Origin: a virus | Reading direction: 5' to 3' (one strand) | IMG/VR virus record: IMGVR_UViG_3300046167_000065 | Span: 1 to 52,925 of that record | Length of the DNA: 52,925 nucleotides | Part shown: positions 2,397-47,672 of the stretch, piece after piece | Layout of the letters: each line of letters begins with the position of its first letter | Numbering within the stretch: the first letter of the stretch is position 1 | The notes under the pieces: generated by a model | What the model was told of the DNA's origin: nothing | The model's input: the letters and a program-made list of their open reading frames with translations, nothing else | Database searches by the model: none | Position numbers and translations under genes: made by a program

Positions 2397-3491
2397 ATGT
2401 ATGTAGTAAATTTATTTGGTGGCATGGAAGTTGGCAGACTTTCCCTTGATAGACTAGGTATAATACCCACTAGATATTATTCTAGTGAGAAAGACCCACA
2501 CGCTATGAAGGTTGCTAGTAAAAACTTTCCAGATATTATACAATTAGGTGATATAAATAACTGGCGCGATTGGGATATTGAATGGCAATTTGTTGATCTA
2601 GTTATGGGGGGTTTCCCTTGCCAGAGTTGGTCAGTTGCAGGAAAACAAACAGGCGATAGGGATAGTAGAGGTCAGCTATTCTGGGTGATGCTAGATATTA
2701 TGCAACACGTTATGGAGTGTAATCCTAATGCTAAATACCTTATGGAAAATGTTAGAATGTCTAATGCTTTTGAAAAGTATATTACGCACCATACTGAGCA
2801 AGCTTTGCCCAACGTGAATAAATACTTGATCAATAGCTCACTAGTATCAGCACAAAATCGTAAGCGTTTTTACTGGACTAACATTGAGGGTATTGAACAA
2901 CCAAAAGATCGTGGCATTGTCTTAAAAGATATACTTGAGGATGGATTAACTGATAGAACTAAATCACATTGCCTAGATGCTAACTACTTTAAGGGTGGCA
3001 ATCTCAAGTCATACTTCGAGAAGCATCGCAGACAGTTGGTGTTTAGTCCTAATGGTATGTGTCATGTAGGTGATGCTGATTTGAATGGTAATCAGTCCAT
3101 TAAACGAGTGTATCATGAGGATGGTAAAGCACCTACACTAACGACTATGGGCGGTGGGCATAGAGAACCTAAAGTATTAGTGAAGGGCGCTCGTATGGTA
3201 GGGCGTAGGCTAGATGCTAGTGGAACTCGCAAGGATAATGATAAGAGTATCCCTATCAAACAGATGATAGAAGTTCGAGATGATGATAAAACTAATTGTC
3301 TCACAACAGTAACTAAGGATAGCATTCTTGTAGAGAATATGTCTTGGCGCAAGCTAACACCTCTGGAATGTGAACGCCTACAAACAGTGCCTGATGGGTA
3401 CACTGAGGGCGTATCGAATACCCAACGCTACAAAATGCTAGGCAATGGTTGGACTTGCGATGTCATAGCACACATACTGAAAGGATTATAA
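2397..3491 (+). CDS. DNA (cytosine-5-)-methyltransferase
   Basis: This is an AdoMet-dependent C5 methyltransferase of the Dcm/M.HhaI family, 364 aa. Motif I is degenerate but present (VNLFGGMEVG, residues 4-13). Motif IV contains the catalytic Cys75 in GGFPCQSWS. Motif VI is MENV (116-119) and motif VIII is QNRKR (153-157). The target-recognition region spans roughly 165-310. Motif IX (LTPLECERLQTVPDGYT) and motif X (MLGNGWTCDV) close the protein. No cognate restriction enzyme is nearby, so it is an orphan phage enzyme that probably masks DNA from host restriction. The RBS GAGGAG lies at 2385-2390. A 30-base direct repeat begins in its last codons. Confidence 0.93.
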   Translation: MYVVNLFGGMEVGRLSLDRLGIIPTRYYSSEKDPHAMKVASKNFPDIIQLGDINNWRDWDIEWQFVDLVMGGFPCQSWSVAGKQTGDRDSRGQLFWVMLDIMQHVMECNPNAKYLMENVRMSNAFEKYITHHTEQALPNVNKYLINSSLVSAQNRKRFYWTNIEGIEQPKDRGIVLKDILEDGLTDRTKSHCLDANYFKGGNLKSYFEKHRRQLVFSPNGMCHVGDADLNGNQSIKRVYHEDGKAPTLTTMGGGHREPKVLVKGARMVGRRLDASGTRKDNDKSIPIKQMIEVRDDDKTNCLTTVTKDSILVENMSWRKLTPLECERLQTVPDGYTEGVSNTQRYKMLGNGWTCDVIAHILKGL

Positions 3492-6851: not shown

Positions 6852-6945
6852 TAATATAACAATGCATCTACTACCATTAACTGTTATTGCTGCTTACATT
6901 GGTGGTGCTTTATATCTCTGGTACAGAAACGCGAAAGGAAGGTAA
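6844..6945 (+). CDS. Tiny membrane protein, 33 aa
   Basis: The ATG overlaps the end of the previous gene by 8 nt. The product is one hydrophobic helix (LLPLTVIAAYIGGALYLWY) with a basic C-terminus (RNAKGR). The AAAGGAAGG inside its last codons is the RBS of the integrase. It could also be a leader peptide coupling integrase translation. Confidence 0.4.
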   Translation: MSSNITMHLLPLTVIAAYIGGALYLWYRNAKGR

Positions 6946-6946
6946 C

Positions 6947-7858
6947 ATGAAAATACCCAAGGGTAATGCTAAGCTAAGTGATATTGTAGAGTTTTATCTG
7001 GTATCTCCTGCCTTTGCTAGGCTATCTGGTGCATCTCAAAAGGATTATGAAATACATCTAGCGTCTGTGATTAATACACTTGTTGAAGGCAAGACCCTTG
7101 GCAACTATCGTTGTACTAATATTAAAGTACGACACCTTACACAAGCGTATGATCAATGGCTTAACACAGGTGTACGCACTGCAAACTATCGTAAGGCTGT
7201 ACTGTCTGCTGCTTGGAAGTATTCCATGAGACAGGATGTAATGATACACAACCCAGTAGCACTGGTACAAACTAAGGCTAGTAAGCAGAGGCGTGTATAC
7301 TGGAGTAGAGATCAGATCAAAACGTTTCTTGAGGTAGGCTATAGTGACTTCAGATGGCGTAGCATTAGTCTTATTGTACACATGGCATATGATTGGGGTC
7401 AGCGTATAGGTGACATGAGAGTTATGACTTGGGATACATTAGACTTAGATCAGTGTCGCTTAGATCTAACACAAAGTAAACGTAATGCTGAAGTACACCT
7501 ACCTATATCTAATGGGTTGTGTGAGATGCTGCGACAACAGAAGGAAGACTTTGGATTCCAGGATTATGTAGCACCTAGAGTTAAGCCAAGAGCAGCGGCA
7601 TATACACCATATGATAAGGGTGAAATATCTTTACTTATCAATGAGGTACTAGATGAAGCTAATCTACCTGCTGAGCTTACAGCTATGGACTTGCGCCGTA
7701 CTGCTGTGACTGAGATGATGGAAGGTGGGGTTGACTTAGCTAATATTATGCAGGTAACAGGGCATAAGAATATACAATCAGTAAAACCTTATATAGTAAA
7801 TACATTGAGTGGTGCATCTAAAGCACTATCAGCGAGAGGGAATGAAGAGGATGAGTAA
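6947..7858 (+). CDS. int: Tyrosine recombinase (integrase)
   Basis: A 303-aa phage-type integrase. The N-terminal SAM-like DNA-binding region covers about residues 10-105 and the catalytic domain about 115-290. Visible catalytic residues are Arg153 (GQRIGD), a candidate Lys178, Arg250 (MDLRRT), His273 (TGHKN) and the nucleophile Tyr282 (KPYI). The His expected at the HxxR position is Met247. I chose the start at 6947 because GGAAGG precedes it. It implies site-specific integration or a relic of it. No attP site was identifiable by eye, and no separate excisionase was recognised. Confidence 0.88.
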   Translation: MKIPKGNAKLSDIVEFYLVSPAFARLSGASQKDYEIHLASVINTLVEGKTLGNYRCTNIKVRHLTQAYDQWLNTGVRTANYRKAVLSAAWKYSMRQDVMIHNPVALVQTKASKQRRVYWSRDQIKTFLEVGYSDFRWRSISLIVHMAYDWGQRIGDMRVMTWDTLDLDQCRLDLTQSKRNAEVHLPISNGLCEMLRQQKEDFGFQDYVAPRVKPRAAAYTPYDKGEISLLINEVLDEANLPAELTAMDLRRTAVTEMMEGGVDLANIMQVTGHKNIQSVKPYIVNTLSGASKALSARGNEEDE

Positions 7859-15671: not shown

Positions 15672-17589
15672 GTAACCAATTACCAACAGACTATCAAGCA
15701 TTCATACACAAGTCACGCTACGCCAAGTACTTTGATGGCAAAGGGCGTGAGTCTTGGGGAGAAACAGTAGGGCGTTACATGGATAACGTAGTTCGCAAGG
15801 CGCTGGGCGATGAGGTAGATAGAATAGTAGACAACACAGACGTAAGAGATATTGAACAGGCTATACTTGGTCAAGAGAATAATGCCTAGTATGAGAGCTA
15901 TGATGACAGCTGGTCCTGCCTTGGATCGCGACAATACAGCTGGATATAACTGTAGTTACCTTACCAGTAGATGATCCTAAATCTTTTGATGAGGCTATGT
16001 ACATACTTCTCTGTGGTACTGGTGTTGGCTTCTCTGTTGAGAGACAGTTCATAAAGAAGCTACCAGAGATACCTGAGTTGTTTGATAGTGAGTCTACTGT
16101 GGTTGTTAAGGATAGCAAAGAGGGCTGGGCTAAAGGATTCCGTCAAGTTCTAGCACTCTTATGGGCTGGTGAAATACCTAAGTGGGATGTATCTCAAGTT
16201 AGACCTGCAGGTGCAAGACTTAAAACGTTTGGTGGTAGAGCATCAGGACCAGCGCCATTAGTAGAACTGTTTAACTTCGCTGTAGCTACCTTCAAGGGAG
16301 CACAAGGACGTAAGCTTAGCTCTATGGAATGTCACGACCTTATGTGTTTTATAGGTCAGATAGTTGTTGTTGGTGGTGTACGCCGTAGTGCTATGATTTC
16401 ATTGAGTAACTTATCTGATGATAGAATGCGTCATGCTAAGTCAGGACAGTGGTGGGAAACTGCAGGACATAGAGCATTAGCTAACAACTCAGTAGCTTAC
16501 AGTGAGAAGCCAGACATGGAAACATTTATGCGTGAATGGTTGTCTCTGGTTGAGTCTAAGTCTGGTGAGCGTGGTATCTTTAACAGACAGGCATCTAAGG
16601 TACAAGCGGCTAAGAATGGTAGACGTGATCCTAACTACGAGTTCGGCTGCAACCCTTGCAGTGAGATAATTTTACGCCCATACCAGTTCTGTAACCTAAC
16701 GGAGTGTGTAGTACGTGCTACTGATACACTAGAAGATCTTGAGCGTAAGGTTAGACTTGCTACTATCTTAGGTACAATACAGTCTACTATGATTAAGTTC
16801 CCATACCTACGTAAAGTATGGCAGAACAATACAGCAGAAGAGAGATTGCTTGGTGTATCTATGACAGGTATCATGGACAACCCATTAATGACACAGAAGA
16901 ACAAAGGTCTGAAGAAGACACTAGAACACTTACGTTCTGTTGCTGTAGCTACTAATGAAGAGTGGGCTAATCTACTAGGTATACCTGCTAGTACTGCTAT
17001 CAGCTGCGTAAAACCAAGTGGCACGGTTTCACAACTTGTAGATAGCGCCAGTGGAATCCATGCGAGACATAGCCCATACTATATTCGTACTGTACGTGGT
17101 GACAATAAAGACCCTCTAACTCAGTTTATGATTGATAGAGGTATACCTAATGAACCATGTGTTATGAAGCCTGACTCTACAGTTGTGTTTAGCTTCCCAG
17201 TTAAGTCGCCTGAGAAGTCAGTGACACGTAATGTTATGTCGGCTGTGGAGCAATTAGAGTTGTGGCTTGCATATCAACGGCATTGGTGTGAGCATAAGCC
17301 ATCTGTTACTATAACAGTACGTGATGAGGAGTGGATGGATGTAGGTGCATTTGTGTACAAACACTTTGATGAAATGTCAGGTGTGTCATTTTTGCCACAC
17401 TCAGATCACTCATACCAGCAAGCTCCTTACCAAGAGATAGATAAGAAAGAGTATAAAGAATTACTTTCAAAGATGCCTACTCGTATTGATTGGTCAGAGC
17501 TATCAGATTATGAGAGTGAAGATAACACAGTGTCTATGCAAACAATGGCTTGCTCTGGAGACTCTTGTGAAATTGTAGATCTAGTATAA
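15668..17589 (+). CDS. nrdJ: B12-dependent (class II) ribonucleotide reductase, frameshifted
   Basis: The whole enzyme is present but split by two single-base insertions, near 15878 and 15962. Removing them gives 639 aa. The N-terminus is YQAFIHKSRYAKYFDGKGR. The middle reads MPSMRAMMTAGPALDRDN, then CGTGVGFSVER and NPCSEIILRPYQFCNLTEC. The phosphate-binding stretch is CVKPSGTVSQ. The C-terminus has the redox pair in CSGDSCEI. It reduces ribonucleotides using adenosylcobalamin, supplying dNTPs for phage replication. The glutaredoxin follows 3 nt after it. The breaks are likely sequence errors. Confidence 0.88.
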
Positions 17590-18844: not shown

Positions 18845-21800
18845 TTATAACTGACCAGCTTCGTCATAGGCATCTTTGAGATGTTCACTATAACTTATAA
18901 ATAAATCTAGCTCAGCGAAAGAATAGTCTTCTATATCACCACTCACACCAAACTTTTCTTTCAGTACTTTCTTAGCTTCTGTAGTTATCTCTTTAGAGAA
19001 TTTTGACTTTGCTTTATACGCAGCTCTTAGCTTAACATTATCACCTGTAGTATAACCCTCATCTAACCTCTCACGTATCTGCTTCTTAGCACTACGTAGT
19101 ACAGCCTTTAACATACCACGTCTTTCGGGTAGGTCAGCTTTCATAAACTGCTCTGTCCTTAAAAGTCTCTGCGTCTGTCTCTCTAAGATAGGGGCTAACA
19201 TACCGTTGAATGCTCTATCATATGCAGGTAGTTTAGATCTCTCATTAGCAGTCCAAGCTTGCATCTCAGACATAGAGTATGCTTTCTCAGTAGCTGTACG
19301 ACCCTGCTTTATAGTCAGACCAAAGATTCTAGCAAAAGGGTTAGCATCATATATCTCACCCTCTCTTGTTGCTACTTTCAAATCTTCACCAGTAATAGTA
19401 TCTGTCTTGCCTATGAATGCTTCAAGGATATTATCAAAGTATTTTGTAGAAGTCTGCGTAAACAAACCTAAACCGTCAGCTTGTCTTACGTCTTTAGCTG
19501 CGTCTGTACCCATAGCAAAACCTACAACTTTATTGACAGCATCTAATGGTCTAGTAACACCTGCTAGAAAGTTACCAAAAGTCTTATTGAATGCATCAAA
19601 CTGTGCACCACGTGCACCTTCATCTTGGTTTATCAATACATCTAGTAGGTTGTTTAGATCATTACCAAACTGAGCGTCTTTTGCTAACTGTCCTACAGCA
19701 ACTTGAGTACCCATCTCTTGTATAAGTTCTGGTGGTACAGTCTCACCATTCAGTTTCATATTGAAGATACGTCCAGCAGCAAGGAATGCAGAAAATGGAT
19801 ATGTGTTTTTAGCGTCTATAATTTTACCGCCACCTACATTAATTTCGTATACACCTAAACCTTCATCCCTACGTTCTTTATCATACTGAGAGGCTAGTAT
19901 TAAACCAGCTATACCCACGGTTGTACGAGCTGCTGCATCCATTTCTGAAACACCCATACCTTCTTTTTTAACTATGCGTTTATACATAGGTTTTAATAGT
20001 GTCTCAGGTGCAGAGAAAGGACCCCATTGATAAGCTGTAGCAACAACGTTGTTAAAGAAACGACCAAAGGGTAGTATAGTACCCAAGAAAGGTGTATTGG
20101 ATACAGTCTCTACAAACTTAGCTGCTGTTCTAATAATTTCTGGTTGTTCTTTTGTAGTATAGTCTTTAGCAAACACAGACTTAAGAGTAGTATCTAGTGC
20201 ACCTGATATAACCTCGTCATCAATTATTATATCGTCAGATAGTAATGCTTCCTTAAGAGTAACGCCTCTCTTTAACCTTAGGTACTTATCCATATCAGTC
20301 ATAAACATTTGAGATTTAGTAAACGTATCTTGTATACGCACACCTGTTATCTGATTCATAGCTCTAGTAAAAGCTTCTACATTACGAAAGGCTTTACTGT
20401 CAGGATTCATACCATAACGTTTAGCTGATGCATCTACACCACCTGCCATAGTTTCAAACAGTACCTTCTGTGCATCTAAGTTCTCAGGATCTTCAAGAAA
20501 TTTCATGTATGCATCACGTGTAGTGTACGGGTCCATTAAGTTACGTAGCTTTTGTACCTGTAGTGAGCTAAGCGCACGTGCCTGTCTAAAAGATTCTTGT
20601 GCAGCTTTAGTATTATATGTACTTTGAGCTACACCCTTAGTCATTAGAGCTGTTGAACTAAACAGATCAGCAATAGTTTGACCTACATAGTACTGGCTAA
20701 AACCAGCAACGTTTAATGCTGTGGTAGCCGGGGATGAAACAAGTAATCGTTTCCATACAGACTGACCATAACGTAATGGCTCAGGTGGCTTAGGTTTTTT
20801 AATCTTTGTGCCATCAGATAGTGTAATTTCTTTACCTTCTTCAGCCTCTTTAATAGCACCTGACTGTAACTTTATCTTAGTCTCAGCTGCTAATAGTCCA
20901 GAGTTTAAAGTCTTACTAACCTGTGATGCTACCTGCAAAGTCTTACCAGCCTCACTAAAACGGTCAGCCATAAGATCTCCTAGCTTAACACGTGCACCTG
21001 TGAGATCACCAAATTTAAAACCTGTATGCTTAGCAAAAGCAATATTAATATCTTCAAGTTCTTTCTGTGTAAGTGAGTTAGCTACGTTAGTCATAACATC
21101 AGATATGTGAACTTCTTTACCAACCTTGTATCCCTTGGATCTGAATACACCAACAAGGCCACCTATTTCACCCTCTACATCTCCAAACATTATTTCTCTT
21201 ATAAGTTGAGAGTCATCTAATACTTCGCCTCTACCCTTCTTACCTCTAGCTACTTTAGCATTCCACTTATCTGTAGCTTTACGTATAGCCTTAGCCGCCT
21301 CAGGTGCATCTGCTTTCTTTAGAATAGGAGCATACAAATCTATTGTATTCTGAGCTAGTTTTTCTGTCTCTGTACGAGTATCTTCAAAGCCTGATTTACC
21401 AGCGCCTAGCTTACGTGCTACAAGCTGTGCTCCACCTGCAACACCACCAAGGAGACCAGAGAAAGCACTCTGTGTTTTACTGAACGTTTCTTGTGCTCCT
21501 ACGTCTAGCATAATCTCTTGGTTTGCAATATCTTGATACACAGCAGCCGTAGCGTCCAGCGCTGTAGTAGCATACAAGGATTTAGTAGCCGCTGTTCTAA
21601 ATAAATTTTTCTGTGCTTCTTTCATGGCATCTCTAGGTATAGCTTTCTTAGCTTCTGTTTCAACAAGCTTAGATACTTTATCATATATACCCTTAGTTCT
21701 TTTATCTGTCATACCCCTAGCTGCCGCACGTTCAGCCGCTTCTTTACCAGCTTTACGCCCTGCTTCTCTAGCTGCTTTTTTTGTAGCACCAGATCTTAGA

Positions 21801-22345
21801 GCATCTCTACCAGCCTTACGTACTGCAGCTTTTATAACTTGCTTACCACTTACTTGAACACCACCAGCTGCAGCTCTACCTATACCACCAGTAAGTATAC
21901 CTAAGTAGTTAGTAGGATCAGATGCCGCAGCAAATACGTAGTCTCCTACACCCTTTACAGCACCCATCAATCCATCATTAACAAAGACATTACCTAGCTG
22001 ATCGTATATCTGATAAGCTTTACGTGCTGTTTCTTTTTGTCTCTTATTTGCTTTAGTAACAAATCTAACTTCACCTGCAGTCATTACAGTATTAGCGTTG
22101 AAGTAACGCATGTGCTTTACAAAATCATCTACTACATCTTCGTCTGATTTAGTTTGATAATCTACACCCATACGTTCAATCATATAGTCACGAATAGGTT
22201 GATTATACTTATAGTCTTTTCGTATGTCGTCTACAGATAATGTTTCTTCTGGATCAAACGATAGAGTTTCATACTTTTTTTCAGAAGAAGAATCTGCACC
22301 ACTATAAAGATTTTTCATATATTCTTTTTGTTCAAAGTAATTCAT
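18845..22345 (-). CDS. Large internal virion (ejection) protein, 1166 aa
   Basis: This is the longest gene and the last of the late operon, the position of T7 gp16-like ejection proteins. It is largely helical. It has a Gly/Ala-rich hydrophobic segment near residues 110-180 (YVFAAASDPTNYLG), a Lys/Arg/Ala-rich coiled region (about 190-235) and later apolar stretches (LLVSSPATTALNV, ATAYQWGPFSAP). I see no clear transglycosylase motif. It probably enters the host envelope with the DNA. This is inferred from size, position and composition. Confidence 0.7.
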   Translation of the reverse strand: MNYFEQKEYMKNLYSGADSSSEKKYETLSFDPEETLSVDDIRKDYKYNQPIRDYMIERMGVDYQTKSDEDVVDDFVKHMRYFNANTVMTAGEVRFVTKANKRQKETARKAYQIYDQLGNVFVNDGLMGAVKGVGDYVFAAASDPTNYLGILTGGIGRAAAGGVQVSGKQVIKAAVRKAGRDALRSGATKKAAREAGRKAGKEAAERAAARGMTDKRTKGIYDKVSKLVETEAKKAIPRDAMKEAQKNLFRTAATKSLYATTALDATAAVYQDIANQEIMLDVGAQETFSKTQSAFSGLLGGVAGGAQLVARKLGAGKSGFEDTRTETEKLAQNTIDLYAPILKKADAPEAAKAIRKATDKWNAKVARGKKGRGEVLDDSQLIREIMFGDVEGEIGGLVGVFRSKGYKVGKEVHISDVMTNVANSLTQKELEDINIAFAKHTGFKFGDLTGARVKLGDLMADRFSEAGKTLQVASQVSKTLNSGLLAAETKIKLQSGAIKEAEEGKEITLSDGTKIKKPKPPEPLRYGQSVWKRLLVSSPATTALNVAGFSQYYVGQTIADLFSSTALMTKGVAQSTYNTKAAQESFRQARALSSLQVQKLRNLMDPYTTRDAYMKFLEDPENLDAQKVLFETMAGGVDASAKRYGMNPDSKAFRNVEAFTRAMNQITGVRIQDTFTKSQMFMTDMDKYLRLKRGVTLKEALLSDDIIIDDEVISGALDTTLKSVFAKDYTTKEQPEIIRTAAKFVETVSNTPFLGTILPFGRFFNNVVATAYQWGPFSAPETLLKPMYKRIVKKEGMGVSEMDAAARTTVGIAGLILASQYDKERRDEGLGVYEINVGGGKIIDAKNTYPFSAFLAAGRIFNMKLNGETVPPELIQEMGTQVAVGQLAKDAQFGNDLNNLLDVLINQDEGARGAQFDAFNKTFGNFLAGVTRPLDAVNKVVGFAMGTDAAKDVRQADGLGLFTQTSTKYFDNILEAFIGKTDTITGEDLKVATREGEIYDANPFARIFGLTIKQGRTATEKAYSMSEMQAWTANERSKLPAYDRAFNGMLAPILERQTQRLLRTEQFMKADLPERRGMLKAVLRSAKKQIRERLDEGYTTGDNVKLRAAYKAKSKFSKEITTEAKKVLKEKFGVSGDIEDYSFAELDLFISYSEHLKDAYDEAGQL

Positions 22346-38124: not shown

Positions 38125-39192
38125 TTACGCAGCGTTGTAGTGCGCTGTGACTAATGCTTCTGGGCGAAGAATCTTGCGTCCGTAAAGATGCATACCGCGA
38201 ACGATGTCAGCGAATGAATCTGGGTCACGATAATTCTCGACCTTGTTGATCTGCTCAGCAGAAGCAACAGCATCGTCTTGACCAGCTACGATAACACCAA
38301 AGTTTACGTCTTGTGCTAATGCACCAGAAGTTCCAGCACCTGTACCCTTAGCAGGTAAAGAGTTGGATTGGTAAATACGGAAGCCGTGTAGGTTGTTTAA
38401 GACCAAGCCATTTTGTAGACCTGCTCCACCGAAGTCAGCATTCAACATACGTGAATCTTCGTCTTTGAGCATCTCAATAAATACCGGGTCTAATACCAGC
38501 CATCTACCTCTTGAGTCAACATTTGCTTGATCCATCTGACGTGCCATACGAGCAACCACTGTCAAAGGTGAAACAGTCGCTGTAGACAACGCTGTTGCGC
38601 CTGGAAGACGTGGAGCCAATGGGATTGAATCGCCACTAGCATATGCTGTTGAAGCAGAGTCAGCAGAACCCAATGAACCGAAGTCCGTTGCGTCCAAATG
38701 GTTAGCAGTTAAAAACTCACCTGTTAGGTTTCCAGCTGTGTCGTGCTGTGCATCACCTGATGTTGCGGTAATGTAAGCACCTGCAGTTGTGTGACCTGAC
38801 ATGTATGATAGAATGTCTGCGTCCATTGAGTCAGCCATTTTAAATGCTGCACGGTCAGCAGCTAAGCTAACGTAGTCAACATTTGAGAATTGGTCCTCGA
38901 TGTCATCCATCTTGAACGCAAAGTAGTTAGCTTTGTCAATAGTCAAAGAGAAGTCTTCATCATTCAACTTTTCAACAGAGATAGCTGTGTGACGCTCAAG
39001 AGCGTTTACAGTCACATCTGGTTCTTTTTGAATGCGAACAACGTCGCCTTGGTTTGCAATCTCACCAAAGTAAGAGTTATTAGTGATTGCGTTAGCTACA
39101 GCTGCACGACGAAGTGCGATCTGTGCTTGTTTTGAGTAGATAATCGGGGAAAAGTTTCCGTTAAATCCACCACTTGCGGAAGTAATAGCCAT
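38125..39192 (-). CDS. Major capsid protein
   Basis: A 355-aa protein of HK97-fold size, in the expected place right after the scaffold. The N-terminal part has YSKQAQIALRRAAVANAITN and GDVVRIQKEPDVTVNALERH (E-loop region). The helix YVSLAADRAAFKMADSMDAD and a C-terminal IVRGMHLYGRKILRPEALV look like the P- and A-domains. Codon use is noticeably more GC-rich than neighbouring genes, as expected for a very highly expressed gene. It has its own promoter, leader and terminator. Confidence 0.88.
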   Translation of the reverse strand: MAITSASGGFNGNFSPIIYSKQAQIALRRAAVANAITNNSYFGEIANQGDVVRIQKEPDVTVNALERHTAISVEKLNDEDFSLTIDKANYFAFKMDDIEDQFSNVDYVSLAADRAAFKMADSMDADILSYMSGHTTAGAYITATSGDAQHDTAGNLTGEFLTANHLDATDFGSLGSADSASTAYASGDSIPLAPRLPGATALSTATVSPLTVVARMARQMDQANVDSRGRWLVLDPVFIEMLKDEDSRMLNADFGGAGLQNGLVLNNLHGFRIYQSNSLPAKGTGAGTSGALAQDVNFGVIVAGQDDAVASAEQINKVENYRDPDSFADIVRGMHLYGRKILRPEALVTAHYNAA

Positions 39193-39426: not shown

Positions 39427-40374
39427 CTATTTCTTTGATAAATCGTAAATAAATTTACCTTTACGTTGAGCGTCCATTATTTCTTCTTGACGCTTCTCAT
39501 ATTCTTTGATGCTCATCTTAGCAATCTGTGACTCACGTAAGTAAGTTGAGCTATCGTCTGACTCTGGTGCAGCTGAGCGTTTACTCTTTACAGAACTTGC
39601 TGCGCCCTTATCAGATGTATTAGCTTTCTTTGTAACAATACCTTTATCAGATTTGTACAAGTCAATAACACGGGATACAGACTTAGCATCGTCTACATTC
39701 TCATAGAGAGCATCTTGTACCCACTTAGGTTGATTGTCTGCCCATGTATGGAAAGCATCATCTTCTCTGATAGATACAAAGTCAGGATGCATATGTATTA
39801 ACTCAGCTTCAGCTTTCTCTCGCTTAGCACTAGAGCGTAACTCTTCTATTTCAGCAAGACGTGCATCTAAAGTAGAAGACTTCTTATCTGCTTCTTTTGC
39901 TGCAATAGCTTCTACAATACCTGCAACATCTGGGAATTTCTTAGCCCATGCTTCAATCTCTTCTTCTGACTTAGGAAGTACAAGCTCATTCTTTGTTGCT
40001 GCATCTAATTGTTTCTCTAGCTTATCTAGCTTAGCAGTAAAGTCTTTCTCTTTATCCTGCATGTGTCGGCGTAGATCACCATACCGCTTCTTGAAGTTTT
40101 TCTCTTCACTACTTAACTCGGTATCATCTTCTTGTGCTTCACCTTGGGGTTCTTCTTCTTGTTCGGTACTACTCTCTGTCTGAACTTTGGGTTCGACAGG
40201 ATCTTCGCTACTGGGTTGCGCCTCAACAGCTTCTTCTGTTTCATCTGTCTCGCCACGTGCTTGCTTTAGCAGTGCCTCTAGTTCTTCTTGATCACGCTTA
40301 ACACGTGCGTCATTTCTTTGATGTGAAGCCGATGTAGTTTTAATCGGCGTAGTTTCTTGTGGCTCTTGTATCAT
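39427..40374 (-). CDS. Scaffolding protein
   Basis: A 315-aa protein with an acidic, Glu/Gln/Pro-rich disordered N-terminal third, a central coiled coil (DLRRHMQDKEKDFTAKLDKL, LDARLAEIEELRSSAKREKA) and a basic C-terminal helix (EYEKRQEEIMDAQRKGKF) of the kind that docks capsid protein. It lies directly upstream of the capsid gene. Composition and position both fit an internal scaffold. Confidence 0.82.
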   Translation of the reverse strand: MIQEPQETTPIKTTSASHQRNDARVKRDQEELEALLKQARGETDETEEAVEAQPSSEDPVEPKVQTESSTEQEEEPQGEAQEDDTELSSEEKNFKKRYGDLRRHMQDKEKDFTAKLDKLEKQLDAATKNELVLPKSEEEIEAWAKKFPDVAGIVEAIAAKEADKKSSTLDARLAEIEELRSSAKREKAEAELIHMHPDFVSIREDDAFHTWADNQPKWVQDALYENVDDAKSVSRVIDLYKSDKGIVTKKANTSDKGAASSVKSKRSAAPESDDSSTYLRESQIAKMSIKEYEKRQEEIMDAQRKGKFIYDLSKK

Positions 40375-40440: not shown

Positions 40441-43400
40441 TTACTTCTTCTTCTTTTTGGTTTTCTTCTTGGAGGCTAAACCGCCTTCTTTAAAACCTGT
40501 TACAGGTCTGCCTCTAGCAATATCTGACATTTTCTGGGATGCTTTTCTACCTTCTGATCTAATTTTACTTATCTCAGAAGCTGAAGCACCTCTTCTTTTT
40601 GCCTTAGCAGCAACAGTGTTAGTTGCAATCATAGATGACTTATACTGATCTCTGCCTCGTTGAGCAGCTGCCTCTGCCTCTTGTGCTCGTTTAGCCTCGG
40701 CGGCTTGAGCAGCACTAATTGCTGCAGCCTCTTCTTCTGCTTTACGTTTATCTCTAAGATCTCGGAATTGTTGAGATGTAATTGGGTCTCCGTATGGGTT
40801 ATCATACAGAAGAGATGTAGTTATATTATTAGGATCTGTTTCATCTACTATAGGTTTTGATACAAAAGCCTTCTTACTTTCTGGGACTATTGGCTCTGGT
40901 ACGTATACTTCTGGTTCTTTAACCTTCTCTAGAGCTTCTCCATATGTAAGCGTTGGAGTGAAGTCTTTACCTTCTTGATCTGCAAAAGACTCACTGGCTC
41001 CAAAGCTTCCTGTTTTTAAGAACTCTAAGAAATCTCCGTCATTAGCTGAGCCAGGTTTAGATGCAAACTCACTACCTTCTTCTAGAGATATGTCAGCTAT
41101 TTTTACAAATACATCTCTGTCTGCTGGATCTCCGTAACCAAGTTCAGTTGCTATAATAGTATCTTGACCTAAGTTATTATCTTCACCTTCCCCTGTATAT
41201 CTTCTACCTAAGACAGGAGCACCGTCACTGCCTTTTACATCCATCTCATACCACTCAAAGCCATCACCAGCATACACACCATCCCTAGTGACCTGACCAT
41301 AAGATTCAAACTTTGTTTTTTCTCTGGTTACAGGATCTGTATATGTAGAAACTTTACCTGTTGTAGGAGCTATTACTTCTGCCTCTGTTGGTAGCTTTGT
41401 TTCTGGTTGATCCATACCCATTATGGCAGGGTCACCAGAAGAAATAGCTCCTTCAGTAGGTGTTATATTTTTAGTAATATCACCTTCAAAGTCGTACACC
41501 TCACCAGCTTCAATATCCATCTTCATAGCTACTTCTTTTGCTTTTACTTCATCGTCAGTCTCTGGGAAGAACTCATTTTTTAGTGCTCCATATACACGTG
41601 TAATCAGACCAGGTTTACCTTTCTTGGATGCCTCTAATAAACCTTCAAGAACGGCTCTATCTGCTGTAGATGTTTCTTCTGCTGCAATCCTACGTTCTAT
41701 TTCTTTGTCTAATCTTCTAGCACTATCCATCATAGCACCCTTAACAAATAGACCTAGTAAAGGATTAATAGCACCTGCACCAAATGCTATTGCTGTAGAT
41801 TTGGCCGAGTTTTGATCTTCTAACATCTTAGCAATATCGTCTGTAGTAAGCTCTTTATAATTTATAGGATCTGGTGCTGGCATTGGTCTTGAGCTTCTGT
41901 CGCGTCCACTAGGAGTTACAACCTGTGGTTCTGGTTGTGCTGCAGTAGTAGCAGTAGTTGTAGTATCTGCAGTATCCTCAACTTGTAGTGTATAGCCTGG
42001 AGGTATAGACGTTTGAGGGTTACCATCAATAAATGTAATATATATTGTGTGTCCAGCCTCATTAACATATGTACGTACTTCTACACTAGGTGCACTACCT
42101 GCTACTTCATATCCTGCACTAATACCTTCACTACCTAAGCCCAGCGCACCCATACTAGCATAACCCTCATCACCAGGTGAAAGAGCATAACCACCCTCGT
42201 TCATTGTCATAGGTTGACCATCATCTTCTACTTCTAGTTCAGATATATCAAACATCATATCCATATCAGGTTCGTCTACAGGCTCACCACCAATACGTCC
42301 GTTCTCAGCCATATCTTGATACCCAAACTTAGCCTTAGCACGTAAGTTTTCAAAGAACCTAACACCGTAGAAGCGTACTACGTCAGCAGGTACGACATAT
42401 TCACCTTCACTTAGTTGTGCAGGTATATCGTCACGAACCTCTTTTGCAGTAGAACCTATGGGAACTTCGTTTCCTGACACAGGGTCAATACCTTGAGTGT
42501 TGTCTGGTACTGTATCTAAATCTACGCTACCACCCAGTGCAAAAGCCATTCTTGTTTGTTCATTCATTATCGTTCCACCTTCATTGAATCTTTTTACATT
42601 TTTAGTAGCTGTTATTATTTTACCTTTTCTGGTAACGTTAGCCTCACCAAATACTTTTTCTATCAAAGGAACATATGCTTCAGTCTTTTCGTTTCTTTGA
42701 TAGCCCTTGGTTGTAACTTTTCCTTCACCTTTACCTGTACCTTCATACACAGAAAAGTGTGCTTTACCATTTGGTTTTATTGCATTCTCTGCTTGTAAAG
42801 CAATGTCAATAATGTTTTTATCTTCTTGTATAACATTTAATACATTGTGAGACATAGCCATATCAGCTTGTCCATCTTTTACAGAGTCAACAACTACTGA
42901 ATTATGTTCTGGTGTTCTATTAAACGGATCATAAACTTTTACAGTTGCACCTTCTTCAGCAGCGTCTTCCACTAAGTTATCAAAGCGCCCACCACCAATG
43001 TCAACAATAACATCACCGTCTTTTATTTCACCACGTTTCTTTAACTCATTATAACCTGCAGGTTTCTTATTTTTATTTATAGATGTATCTGCTGAGTCAT
43101 AAAGTTGTTTTGGATATGACCATACACTTTGTTCTTTAGGACTATCTTTTTTAGTTTTGCTAGGTACTACTTTAAAGTCTTTACTTCTTACTCTATCTGA
43201 TAATTCTGAATAAACTTGCATAGGCATAAACGTAGTATCACCTGCTCCTATACTATTTTCTTGTGCAACTTTTTCTAGCCTACGTGTAAAACCCTCACCA
43301 AAAGCAGGTTCATCCATAAGGTCAACAGCAGACTGTGTTACGGTTTTATCATATACACCTGCTGGTGTGTCTGAAATCATATTTATCTGAGGTACACCTG

Positions 43401-43773
43401 TCTTAGATACACCATAATCTATTTTCTTTTTAGGTGTTGGTTTTACACGTTTAGCTACATCAAAAACTTCTTTAGCTCCAGTTTTAATAGCTTTAGCAGC
43501 GGCATCTCCTATTCCAGGAATAAGACCTACAATAGCAGCTCCACCTAAAGCACCAGCTAAATAATAGTTAGGCTTATCTTTTTTTAGTTCGTCATATACT
43601 TCCTTAGCAGCCATAGCATCACCAATAACAGGTGTCATACTAGCTACAAAGGTAGTTGCATCCTTTAAGGATACATCTGGAATACTAACCTGCAATGAAT
43701 CTGCATAATCACGCCATTGATCTGTAGTTCCACCTTGGAAAACATCTTCAGTTTGATTATCTAAGTCATCCAT
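40441..43773 (-). CDS. Large virion-operon protein with embedded methyltransferase-like domain, 1110 aa
   Basis: A multi-part protein. An apolar Gly-rich segment (YYLAGALGGAAIVGLIPGIG, 70-89) follows a helical N-terminus. Residues about 225-395 look like a class I AdoMet methyltransferase: VIVDIGGGRFDN (motif I, 255-266), VKVYDPFNRTPEHN, DMAMSHNVLNVI and HFSVYEGTGKG. The centre has LSEGEYVVPADVVRFYGVRFF, a segment I associate with marine-phage structural proteins. The C-terminal part is Glu/Ala coiled coil ending in a Lys tail (KKKTKKKKK). It lies between portal and scaffold, so it may be packaged and injected. Activity is unproven. Confidence 0.7.
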   Translation of the reverse strand: MDDLDNQTEDVFQGGTTDQWRDYADSLQVSIPDVSLKDATTFVASMTPVIGDAMAAKEVYDELKKDKPNYYLAGALGGAAIVGLIPGIGDAAAKAIKTGAKEVFDVAKRVKPTPKKKIDYGVSKTGVPQINMISDTPAGVYDKTVTQSAVDLMDEPAFGEGFTRRLEKVAQENSIGAGDTTFMPMQVYSELSDRVRSKDFKVVPSKTKKDSPKEQSVWSYPKQLYDSADTSINKNKKPAGYNELKKRGEIKDGDVIVDIGGGRFDNLVEDAAEEGATVKVYDPFNRTPEHNSVVVDSVKDGQADMAMSHNVLNVIQEDKNIIDIALQAENAIKPNGKAHFSVYEGTGKGEGKVTTKGYQRNEKTEAYVPLIEKVFGEANVTRKGKIITATKNVKRFNEGGTIMNEQTRMAFALGGSVDLDTVPDNTQGIDPVSGNEVPIGSTAKEVRDDIPAQLSEGEYVVPADVVRFYGVRFFENLRAKAKFGYQDMAENGRIGGEPVDEPDMDMMFDISELEVEDDGQPMTMNEGGYALSPGDEGYASMGALGLGSEGISAGYEVAGSAPSVEVRTYVNEAGHTIYITFIDGNPQTSIPPGYTLQVEDTADTTTTATTAAQPEPQVVTPSGRDRSSRPMPAPDPINYKELTTDDIAKMLEDQNSAKSTAIAFGAGAINPLLGLFVKGAMMDSARRLDKEIERRIAAEETSTADRAVLEGLLEASKKGKPGLITRVYGALKNEFFPETDDEVKAKEVAMKMDIEAGEVYDFEGDITKNITPTEGAISSGDPAIMGMDQPETKLPTEAEVIAPTTGKVSTYTDPVTREKTKFESYGQVTRDGVYAGDGFEWYEMDVKGSDGAPVLGRRYTGEGEDNNLGQDTIIATELGYGDPADRDVFVKIADISLEEGSEFASKPGSANDGDFLEFLKTGSFGASESFADQEGKDFTPTLTYGEALEKVKEPEVYVPEPIVPESKKAFVSKPIVDETDPNNITTSLLYDNPYGDPITSQQFRDLRDKRKAEEEAAAISAAQAAEAKRAQEAEAAAQRGRDQYKSSMIATNTVAAKAKRRGASASEISKIRSEGRKASQKMSDIARGRPVTGFKEGGLASKKKTKKKKK

Positions 43774-43954
43774 TTACTTTATCCCTCAAGTACTGTAGTT
43801 GTCGTAAAGCACGTATAGCACCCTGATGCCTGTATAGTTCAGCAGTATCTGTAACAGTTTCCATACTACGATGTTGTGTAGAGATACGCTCCTCTAACTC
43901 AGAGAGAAACGATTCCCACGATATCTGATTGTTTACAAAACTCTTAAGAGACAT
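43766..43954 (-). CDS. Small head-operon protein, 62 aa
   Basis: A helical protein: MSLKSFVNNQISWESFLSEL then YRHQGAIRALRQLQYLRDKV. From memory, similar short proteins lie beside portal genes in many podoviruses. The ATG at 43954 overlaps the portal end; an in-frame GTG at 43960 is an alternative start. It ends by overlapping the 1110-aa protein's start. The function is not known. Confidence 0.65.
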   Translation of the reverse strand: MSLKSFVNNQISWESFLSELEERISTQHRSMETVTDTAELYRHQGAIRALRQLQYLRDKVNG

Positions 43955-46073
43955 TGCCACTAAATCCTTGCTCGCCGGGAACTGGTGCTGTACCCATACC
44001 TATCTGTCCACCTCCACCGCCTGATGTGTCCTGTACGCCTCCCTGAGGTGTCTGTGGCGCTTGTTGGCCTCCCTCAGGTGCTGGTACACCCTCAGGTGCT
44101 TCTGGAGGCTGTGCTGGTTGCTGGAAGCCTTTGAGGATCTCAGCTTGGATAGCAGCATCAGCCATAGAGTTAGTAACCTTATCAGGATCAAGATCCATAG
44201 ACTTAGCAATCTCACGTATAATATAATCCATCTTAGCAAAAGGAGCTAGTACTGGATTCTGTGCAACTTGTAAGAACTGCATTAAGCGCTGGGATCTTAC
44301 TTCGTTAGCCATTAAGCTTTCTGTACCTGACGCTTGTACTTCTAAGTCACCACGTATTTGTTCATCAAAGTCAAACTGCATGTTGAAAGAGAAGAAAGCT
44401 TTACCTAAGGGGCGAAGTAAATAGTCATCCACGTTTTTAACTACTGTACGAATAGAACCATTAGCAGCGGACATAAGCATACTAATACCTGAGGCTGTAC
44501 GCCCAACGCCTGATACACCTGTTTGACCATGTGCAAAGCTAGGGAAGCCAGTACTCTCATCTGCTAGTACTCTTGCCTTATCAAAGAGTTGCATATTTTC
44601 TTGTGCAACATTTGGGAACTTAGTACCAAAGATGGCTTGTCCTGGTGCGCCCCCAGCCCTGCGGAAGACCTTGCCCGGGTATACAGATAAGTCTTGTCCC
44701 GGTGTTAGGTTGGTCTCATCTACTTCTATAATAAGATTACCAGATAATGCAGCATTGTCAATAGCCATACGCATAAAGCCATTCATCAGTGTCTGTGTAT
44801 CATCCATGTTCTCAGCAATACCTACACCAAAGAAGCTGTAAGGGTTATGCTCGTAAGGAACAGCATAGTAAGGGATACGTGTAGGTTTGAATGGGTTTAG
44901 TACAAATCGTAGTACTTCACCATTACATGTCCAAACATTACAGTTAACCTCATCTAAGTCTTTCAACTCGCTGGGTATCTTAACCCCATGCTCTTCAAGT
45001 AGTTGAATATCTACATAACCCCAGAACTCTAATACTTCCCAACGCTCAGAGGTTGGTTGTGTATCATCATCCTCCATAGTCATTTCCCAGTATTTCTGTA
45101 TATAGTCAGCACCTTTATCTACTGCCATCTGAACTGAGTCAGACATGAAGTAAGGACGACTTCTTAACGAGCGTAGCTGTGTACGTGACATCTTATGACG
45201 TTCAACAGTATACTCTGCATCATTCATAGACTTAGCTTCTGGGTCTGGGTAGAAATCCCAAGAAGATACATGGCTACACTCAGGTACTGTCTTGACTAAT
45301 GGATCATACTCACCTTCATCATTCCAGTTAGGGTATTCTTTATCTACTGCAAAAGGACCTTTCATAACACCTGTGCCAAGTAGTGCCATCTCAAACGCCA
45401 TAGAGCGTAGGTGTGTAGATGCACCTGATTCTTGCAGCTGGTCATGGATTTTCTTTTCCATCTTCTTAGCTGAGATCATGGCTGGATGAAATGATACGGT
45501 AGCTGGTGTAGTTCCGTCGCCCTCAATAATCTTATCTGATACAGCTTCTAACTTACTGTTTAAACCACCCATACGTGCCTGTAAGTCCATAAGAGTCTCA
45601 CCAGGTTTTAGAGAAGTATCACCATTAAGAAGGTAAGAACCAGAAGCTTTATCTTCAGTCACAGGCTTTAGTGCATCACCTGCAGCTTGAGCTTTAGGAT
45701 CTATATTAACGTGTACTGCTTCTGCTACACCATCAGGTAATACAGAAGGGTTAACAGATAGTGGGAACTTGTTGTTACCAAATAGTACATCTACAATCTG
45801 ACCATATGCAGCAAGTGTCTTAGTCTTAGTAACCTTAACAAATACACGTGACTTCTCAGTGTCGGTAAACTGTACATCCTTGCCGTATAAGCCCCTATAG
45901 TTTCGGTAAGCTTTTAACCAGCGTTGTTCATCAGCATAACGTGCATCCTCTGCTCGTTTGTATCGCTCTTGTACAAAAGCTACTACGCTATCTTTTTGTT
46001 CAAAGATACTATCCGTACTGTCTTCTGCAGCTACGACTTCATCTGTTTCAAACATTTCTTCTTGTTCTGCCAT
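43944..46073 (-). CDS. Portal protein (head-tail connector)
   Basis: A 709-aa protein after the large terminase. Typical portal features are the N-terminal RYKRAEDARYADEQRWLKAYRNYRGLYG, then KVTKTKTLAAYGQIVDVLFG, SSWDFYPDPEAKS, and the helical stem region with YEHNPYSFFGVGIAENMDDTQ. The last 60 residues are Pro/Gly/Gln-rich and likely disordered. Twelve copies would form the DNA entry ring. Confidence 0.85.
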   Translation of the reverse strand: MAEQEEMFETDEVVAAEDSTDSIFEQKDSVVAFVQERYKRAEDARYADEQRWLKAYRNYRGLYGKDVQFTDTEKSRVFVKVTKTKTLAAYGQIVDVLFGNNKFPLSVNPSVLPDGVAEAVHVNIDPKAQAAGDALKPVTEDKASGSYLLNGDTSLKPGETLMDLQARMGGLNSKLEAVSDKIIEGDGTTPATVSFHPAMISAKKMEKKIHDQLQESGASTHLRSMAFEMALLGTGVMKGPFAVDKEYPNWNDEGEYDPLVKTVPECSHVSSWDFYPDPEAKSMNDAEYTVERHKMSRTQLRSLRSRPYFMSDSVQMAVDKGADYIQKYWEMTMEDDDTQPTSERWEVLEFWGYVDIQLLEEHGVKIPSELKDLDEVNCNVWTCNGEVLRFVLNPFKPTRIPYYAVPYEHNPYSFFGVGIAENMDDTQTLMNGFMRMAIDNAALSGNLIIEVDETNLTPGQDLSVYPGKVFRRAGGAPGQAIFGTKFPNVAQENMQLFDKARVLADESTGFPSFAHGQTGVSGVGRTASGISMLMSAANGSIRTVVKNVDDYLLRPLGKAFFSFNMQFDFDEQIRGDLEVQASGTESLMANEVRSQRLMQFLQVAQNPVLAPFAKMDYIIREIAKSMDLDPDKVTNSMADAAIQAEILKGFQQPAQPPEAPEGVPAPEGGQQAPQTPQGGVQDTSGGGGGQIGMGTAPVPGEQGFSGNVS

Positions 46074-46076
46074 TTA

Positions 46077-47672
46077 TTAATACCCGAATGTTGTATCACT
46101 AGCTTGAAAGCCTGTGCGTTGTGTTGCTGGGTTGAAATCCCAAATGCTGCTGCGTGGACGTGTCATAACACCATAACGTAAAGCATCATACAAGTGATCC
46201 TCTGCGTGAGTGTCTACATCTTCTGGGTTTCTTTTATCCAGAGGAATGCTTGGTATCTGCGCTATAGTGTTAGTGCAGTTGTTCATAAATACTAACCTAG
46301 GCTTCTCAGTAAACTCATCGACTTGTAACCGCCTATGTATTTCGTTTTTACCTGCGACACGCGAACCCCTAGAGCGATCAGATGGTCGCCAACGACAACC
46401 CTTCATAATCATTTGCTCAGCTAGTGATGGTCCCGTGTCGCCACGGTTGTGCCACAAAGAAGAGTCTAGCACCCCGTATCTCATACCACCATCTTGTTTC
46501 TCTAAGTCTAAAATCATATCCGCTAAATCTGTAGCTGTAACCTTAGAACAATATAACTCTCTATAAACAATGAGTTGCTCGTCTGGTGCAACAGCAAACC
46601 AGATAACTCCTGTATAAGATCCGTAGCCGTAGTCACAAGCTCTAAACTTAGCCCAGCTTTCGGGAACTTCAAAAGCGTCAATGACATGTTTGGTTCTGTC
46701 AAACTCTGGGAAAGCGGCTCCATCATTAATATCCCAGTTGCCTTCTAAGAGTTGTTTTCTTTGGTGCTCTGGTAGTGACAGTAGCATTGCTTCATAGTCA
46801 CCTGCCTCAGCAAGATATGGGTTATCAAATAGTGATGCAGGTATAAACCTACGTTTGAACAATGGCTGTCCAGCTTTACTGTGTCCATCAGGATATGTAA
46901 TAGTATCTCCTGTTTCAACATTTGTAGCCCAGAAAGGCTCGTTAGATGGTCCAGGATCAATAAACATTTTCTTAACCCACTGATGACCGCTGCCACCTGG
47001 GTTGGTAGTAGCTCTCATGTACAAACCTAAGTGCTGGGCTGAACTACGTAAACGTGATCTCATGTAGTCCCAAGCGTAAGGACTAGACCATTGTGTAAGT
47101 TCGTCAAAGCCTATCCAGTTAAAAGCCTGTCCTTGGTATCTTGTAACGTCTGTATCTTTATCCAAGTACGACATCCAGAGTCTACCACCTCTAGGTGAAG
47201 TCCACTGTGATTTACGTTCAGACCATTTGATACCGGGTATAGCACGTGGATATAGTTCTTGGCTCTTCTGTATTAATTCTCTTAGTTCTTCTGTAGTGTG
47301 TCGTACAAGTAGTCCTGAGAAGTTAGGATCATTTAGTCCGTGTAGAGGGTCAGCCAACATGGCATATGATTTACCTCCACCAGCTGCGCCGCCATATAGT
47401 ACTTCTCTCTCTGATGAACTCAGGAAAGAAGTTTGGGGGCCGGGGTTAGGCTTGAACACTATCTCTTGTGCTAAGTCCTCATCATACTCAGGAGAAACTA
47501 CTTGAGCAGGAACAGTCTCCCTAGGGATATCTATTTGTTCAACTGCCTCTACTTGAATCTCTGTATGCCCCGACCCCTTGGGTTTCGAGCTTTTCGATTT
47601 CCGTAATGGTTTCTTCGAGCCACTTGGCAAGCTTGCGTTTAATAGCAGATGCTTTTCTACGTTTTTGCTCAA
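46077..47672 (-). CDS. terL: Terminase large subunit
   Basis: The DNA-packaging motor, up to 531 aa. Walker A is YGGAAGGGKS (Lys101) and Walker B is WIGFDELTQW (Asp190, Glu191). The RNase-H-like nuclease domain has ACDYGYGSYTGVIW, YGVLDSSLWHNRGD and a late HAEDHLYDALRYG. No ATG exists before Walker A. The start is a TTG, at 47672 or 47630, so the gene necessarily overlaps the upstream HTH gene by about 90-130 nt. Both frames code through that overlap. Confidence 0.92.
   Translation of the reverse strand: MSKNVEKHLLLNASLPSGSKKPLRKSKSSKPKGSGHTEIQVEAVEQIDIPRETVPAQVVSPEYDEDLAQEIVFKPNPGPQTSFLSSSEREVLYGGAAGGGKSYAMLADPLHGLNDPNFSGLLVRHTTEELRELIQKSQELYPRAIPGIKWSERKSQWTSPRGGRLWMSYLDKDTDVTRYQGQAFNWIGFDELTQWSSPYAWDYMRSRLRSSAQHLGLYMRATTNPGGSGHQWVKKMFIDPGPSNEPFWATNVETGDTITYPDGHSKAGQPLFKRRFIPASLFDNPYLAEAGDYEAMLLSLPEHQRKQLLEGNWDINDGAAFPEFDRTKHVIDAFEVPESWAKFRACDYGYGSYTGVIWFAVAPDEQLIVYRELYCSKVTATDLADMILDLEKQDGGMRYGVLDSSLWHNRGDTGPSLAEQMIMKGCRWRPSDRSRGSRVAGKNEIHRRLQVDEFTEKPRLVFMNNCTNTIAQIPSIPLDKRNPEDVDTHAEDHLYDALRYGVMTRPRSSIWDFNPATQRTGFQASDTTFGY

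Follow-up and report, generated by a model that had tools for sequence, protein, structure and literature searches.

A 1110-residue protein encoded among the head genes of a virus carries a domain resembling methyltransferases, and the question raised by this locus was what such an enzyme would do in a phage head protein. The window analysed was the whole stretch of 52,925 nucleotides of IMG/VR virus record IMGVR_UViG_3300046167_000065. In our reading, to which a probability of roughly 0.6 was given, the methyltransferase sits in an exchangeable slot of a polyvalent-type head protein, and would be packaged, ejected and used early after infection to modify a molecule of the host or of the phage. 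The genes of the head region were located as follows.

46077-47672, minus strand: terminase large subunit (phrog_979, E 1.5e-57)
43944-46073, minus strand: portal protein (phrog_332, E 1.9e-78; phrog_1216 portal, E 1.8e-37)
40441-43773, minus strand: P0001, 1110-residue head-operon protein, open reading frame bearing the methyltransferase domain
39427-40374, minus strand: protein in scaffold position, matching only phrog_13678 (unknown function, E 1.6e-58)
38125-39192, minus strand: major head protein (phrog_267, E 2.5e-51)

Based on PHROGs, the P0001 gene lies between the portal and major head protein genes, with an open reading frame of 64 residues between it and the portal gene; isolated phages of the group likewise have the gene in the head operon. 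A placement between portal and scaffold had been given in the preliminary description; the portal was confirmed, whereas the supposed scaffold gene found only an unnamed PHROG. A portal-adjacent protein matching residues about 396-755 of P0001 was present in 15 records of phages, most of them Roseobacter phages and one Puniceispirillum phage HMO-2011, and the window was therefore assigned by sequence to an HMO-2011-type marine podovirus, a member of an abundant marine group.

Elsewhere in the window, a C5-cytosine-specific DNA methylase gene (2397-3491, plus strand; PF00145, E 6e-36) stands separate from the head-operon domain, and a tyrosine integrase gene (6887-7858, plus strand; Phage_integrase, E 3.4e-20) suggests a temperate or integrating phage. 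An open reading frame of 530 residues (15997-17589, plus strand), whose residues 37-110 only partially match B12-dependent ribonucleotide reductase, is possibly a gene that has diverged or been split; another of 1166 residues (18845-22345, minus strand) had no PHROGs or Pfam match. Nothing was found by a PADLOC scan.

P0001 was divided into the following parts from comparison with related phage contigs.

43438-43773, minus strand: N-terminal segment, residues 1-112, with a hydrophobic stretch (AGALGGAAIVGLIPGIGDAA); 88-99% identity in L170, L171 and L176
43159-43437, minus strand: residues 113-205, variable linker or module of unassigned type; identity 100% in L170, 92% in L176 and 24% in L171
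42583-43145, minus strand: exchangeable cassette defined by blastn breakpoints, replaced by a second family (MTase2) in L170 and L176
42601-43110, minus strand: predicted class I AdoMet methyltransferase domain, residues 222-391 (alignments A1 and A2, AlphaFold2, Foldseek)
42277-42492, minus strand: conserved core that defines the family, DPVSGNEVP..EVRDDIPAQLSEGEYVVPADVVR..GRIGGEP (alignment A5)

A methyltransferase-like domain at residues about 225-395 had been proposed from short motifs, and these motifs were recovered: VDIGGGRFD (with D258), VYDPFNR (D282), NVLNVI (310-315) and VYEGTG. In the A2 alignment of 42 diverse relatives, the positions D47, G51, D71, N74, N80, N99, L101-I104, Q148 and Y156 were invariant (query numbering; about 211 is added for protein numbering). 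The AlphaFold2 model built on this alignment reached a mean pLDDT of 90.6 and a pTM of 0.88, and its order of elements was that of class I enzymes (beta1-alphaA-beta2-alphaB-beta4-alphaD-beta5-alphaE-beta6-beta7) with beta3 reduced. By Foldseek, 383 PDB matches with E <= 0.001 were obtained, the best of which was the SAM-bound 3e23 (E 2.2e-7); nearly all of the best 50 of the 383 were SAM-dependent methyltransferases or related AdoMet enzymes, and solved SAM- or SAH-bound methyltransferases superposed on the model with TM-scores of about 0.6. Among viral models, the same family was recovered in other phages at TM 0.85-0.87 and 29-41% identity. Pfam Methyltransf_23 stayed below its cut-off of 27 bits in P0001 (E 0.0021 for the whole protein, 9.5e-5 for the domain alone) and exceeded it in the relatives L021 (30.5 bits) and L107 (36.4 bits). 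A single-sequence search of the domain against PDB gave no significant match. The candidate 6mro, found with the A1 profile (E 1e-4), was discarded after the broader A2 profile failed to reproduce the match. The assignment therefore relies on comparison of structures. The domain has the features that define class I, namely a Rossmann-like fold in which motif I follows beta1 and an acidic residue follows beta2, and residues about 222-391 are thus predicted to form a class I methyltransferase fold, in agreement with the original proposal.

The domain is replaced in a near-identical phage. When contig L170 was compared with the window by blastn, identity was 99.5% across 47486-43146 and 95.7% across 42582-41190, and the 563 nt between them (43145-42583) were replaced by 569 nt of unrelated sequence. 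The difference amounts to two codons, so the reading frame was kept; accordingly, the L170 protein and P0001 were 99-100% identical before the slot, 26% (unrelated) inside it and 91-98% after it. L176 had the same breakpoints as L170. The left breakpoint of L171 differed, and residues 113-205, retained in L170 and L176, were different in L171. A stretch similar to the N-terminal hydrophobic one was present in CRP-207.

The replacing sequence, MTase2, was also found in the isolates CRP-3 and CRP-738. Its AlphaFold2 model (pLDDT 91.7, pTM 0.87) found METTL6 with SAH or SAM at ranks 1-5 in PDB, and MTase2 is predicted from sequence and model to be a second class I methyltransferase. It shares with the P0001 domain the slot and the class I fold and has a corresponding NVLNVV motif, and the two profiles matched with a probability of 94.9 (E 4.5e-8), but it belongs to a different sequence family, with EPFP in place of DPFNR and TYQKGFTQ..L in place of YQRN.KT..Y. 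Relatives of MTase2 were searched with the A4 profile; on one contig (L307/L350) the domain was split over two reading frames (model positions 4-76 and 76-195), so that either the copy is disrupted or the sequence contains an error.

The cassette DNA had no match among isolated phages. Some relatives carry no module in the slot at all: matches of L179 and L181 begin at window residue 403, and fewer than 150 residues precede the core in 27 of 83 non-identical core proteins. The absence of the N-terminal module from so many relatives indicates that it is dispensable.

Horizontal movement of the domain was also reflected in substitution rates. Compared to L005, L008, L010 and L014, the methyltransferase domain had dS values of 0.22-0.37 beside flanking gene regions of which most exceeded 1 (Nei-Gojobori; values above 1 are rough), which indicates that the domain moves horizontally. 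Together with the breakpoints, these data identify the domain, as judged by sequence comparison, as a horizontally exchanged cassette. Exchange seems to occur inside the domain too, since in L022 (6001-6519) the first 95 domain residues were 91% identical to the window and the remainder 60%, in contrast to near 77-84% identity with L027 and L030 in both parts. The domain dN/dS was 0.10-0.17 against the same four relatives, and ratios of about 0.1-0.2 suggest that function is maintained by purifying selection. The higher value of L174 (0.40) is probably due to intradomain exchange, since L174 belongs to the same contig as L022.

These results bear on the idea that the module is degenerate and non-catalytic, with a structural or binding role. 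Class I folds occur also as inactive binding domains, motif I reads GGGRF rather than GxGxG, beta3 is reduced and the sequence of the domain shows no recognisable catalytic residue. Against this, the D, N, Q and Y positions are invariant across phages, prophages and MAGs, purifying selection is evident, and the domain is swapped for another methyltransferase; degeneration was therefore considered very unlikely.

The region exchanged belongs to a protein family of at least 550 viral relatives defined by the core, to which no related solved structure was found. In P0001, a single enzyme domain was recognised. In other members, the modules ahead of the core include a cell-wall hydrolase (CRP-2 and CRP-3), a LysM domain, a metallopeptidase family and LPD23, the last in 6 of 56 N-terminal regions. 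The region ahead of the core therefore appears, from these sequences, to be a site that carries differing modules, and the set of methyltransferases, hydrolase, LPD23, LysM and metallopeptidase fits cargo delivered during infection better than a structural role. In the mechanism that we favour, the conserved core would most likely anchor P0001 at the head, either inside it or on its surface. The N-terminal module would ride in the virion, be ejected together with the DNA and, soon after infection begins, modify a molecule of the host or of the phage. We infer the packaging, ejection and catalytic activity of the module. DarA/Hdf of P1 illustrates how proteins inside a head can be missing once the DNA has left (PMC12810830). 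For the HMO-2011-type group, no virion proteomics was found in the literature.

A different account would confine the enzyme to the producing cell, where it would act on capsid proteins, packaged DNA or late host components, with the core fusion serving to localise it to the procapsid and no injection taking place. P0001 is after all a head-operon product whose ejection we infer, and the Roseobacter phages CRP-9 (L044 9200-9733), CRP-13 (L050 7255-7950) and CRP-345 (L051 8662-9366) have separate annotated methyltransferase genes near their head genes. The cell-wall hydrolases found on the same core are nevertheless suited to entry. This and the recurrence of the domain beside ART-PolyVal in other proteins make an action restricted to the producing cell unlikely.

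The domain was found well beyond this core. At least 81 viral contigs carried it, including 36 with the HMO-2011-type core in one open reading frame, 31 with complete frames lacking the core and 14 with truncated frames. Some of the proteins were very large (L027, 3740 residues; L146, 2689; L107, 2022), and in the 2022-residue viral protein of L107 (2058-8123) an FtsK gamma domain (E 9.9e-18) directly precedes the methyltransferase. In MAGs, it formed part of long prophage-like proteins at L055-L062 and L064, whereas the proteins with the domain at L063 and L066-L069 were small; the neighbours of the stand-alone homologues L067 and L069 offered no informative shared context. When 398 genomes of the phylum of one MAG, G003, were surveyed around it, G003 alone had the domain, which indicates that it is rare in cellular genomes of that phylum.

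The nearest named kin of the domain is suggested to be TIGR04096 (dnd_rel_methyl, DNA phosphorothioation-associated putative methyltransferase). By hhalign the two aligned over 146 columns with a probability of 96.4 (E 1.4e-9), MTase2 was nearer still (97.8, E 8.1e-13), and a generic phage methyltransferase used as control scored 65.0 (E 6e-5); since the comparisons were pairwise, without database calibration, and the control was a single sequence and not like-for-like, the ranking is suggestive rather than proof. The D-x-G, DP and LNVI motifs are common to both families, and the C-terminal partner domain of TIGR04096 was fused to the domain in relatives from a Vibrio megaplasmid (E 0.0011) and a Thermoplasmata MAG (1.3e-7). 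Full TIGR04096 members have the order partner-methyltransferase-partner and WDP....PD where P0001 has DPFNR...HN, whereas the P0001 domain lies within a phage head-operon protein; P0001 did not match the TIGR04096 model at its NCBIfam cut-off of 150 bits. In the Thiomargarita-labelled MAG G003, the partner domain was a stand-alone frame of 184 residues (L148, E 4.2e-24), and the stand-alone methyltransferase of that genome was located elsewhere. The literature found on TIGR04096 was limited to a genome description, and the available part of a 2024 reappraisal of Dnd in NAR (PMC10853773) does not describe the domain family.

From the kinship with a phosphorothioation-associated family, our guess is that the substrate may be nucleic-acid-related. 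A variant would make it a tRNA or rRNA, with the methyltransferase adjusting host translation at entry. Trm9-Trm112 ranked third for the domain in Foldseek and the METTL6 matches of MTase2 point the same way, but TM-scores were only about 0.6, small-molecule methyltransferases ranked alongside, and a substrate is not given by similarity of fold, so this variant was regarded as quite unlikely. A wider proposal is more tentative than our main reading, and should be taken as a possibility: the slot of HMO-2011-type phages may hold effectors delivered with the virion, and near-identical phages may exchange in it two or more methyltransferase families akin to TIGR04096, which would act at entry on a host molecule or defence, possibly one related to Dnd.

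The horizontal cassette and its TIGR04096 kinship are additions to the preliminary description. Two methyltransferases swapped between otherwise near-identical genomes constitute a natural experiment, and the swap suggests selection on which methyltransferase is carried. Matched swap constructs would help in the search for substrates, including that of the uncharacterised phosphorothioation-associated family. If P0001 is delivered, a methyltransferase family other than DarB joins the enzymes brought into cells by phages.

Among known systems, DarB of phage P1, a packaged DNA methylase-helicase (PMC5512222), resembles P0001 in placing a methyltransferase in a head-associated phage protein, and a DarB-like antirestriction role, in which the domain would methylate DNA bases of the incoming genome, could also draw on the kinship to a family associated with DNA phosphorothioation. 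P0001 differs from DarB in its surrounding protein and has no SF2 helicase. After beta4, the (D/N/S)PP(Y/F/W) motif was absent from the domain and NVLNVI was conserved across the family in its place, so that its motif sets it apart from DarB-type enzymes; no PF00145 match was found in P0001, and a C5-cytosine methylase is already encoded elsewhere by the phage. Judged by these motifs, the domain is predicted to fall outside the usual classes of DNA base methylase, both amino (NPPY-type) and C5, and antirestriction of this type was held to be highly unlikely.

The comparison with polyvalent proteins, drawn at the outset, gained support. These are large phage or plasmid proteins that combine several unrelated enzymatic domains or LPDs (Iyer et al. 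2017, PMC5512222), whereas one such domain was recognised in P0001. The methylase described for them is an EcoKI/TaqI-like adenine N6 enzyme, which has NPP(Y/F) and is joined to both LPD36 and an SF2 helicase; no description of the P0001 domain family was found in the available part of the main text of that paper. The same domain family adjoins an ART-PolyVal above cut-off in L146 and occurs with LPD22 and a weak ART-PolyVal match in L057, as in polyvalent-type proteins, and other members of the core family have LPD23, hydrolase, LysM or metallopeptidase modules ahead of the core.
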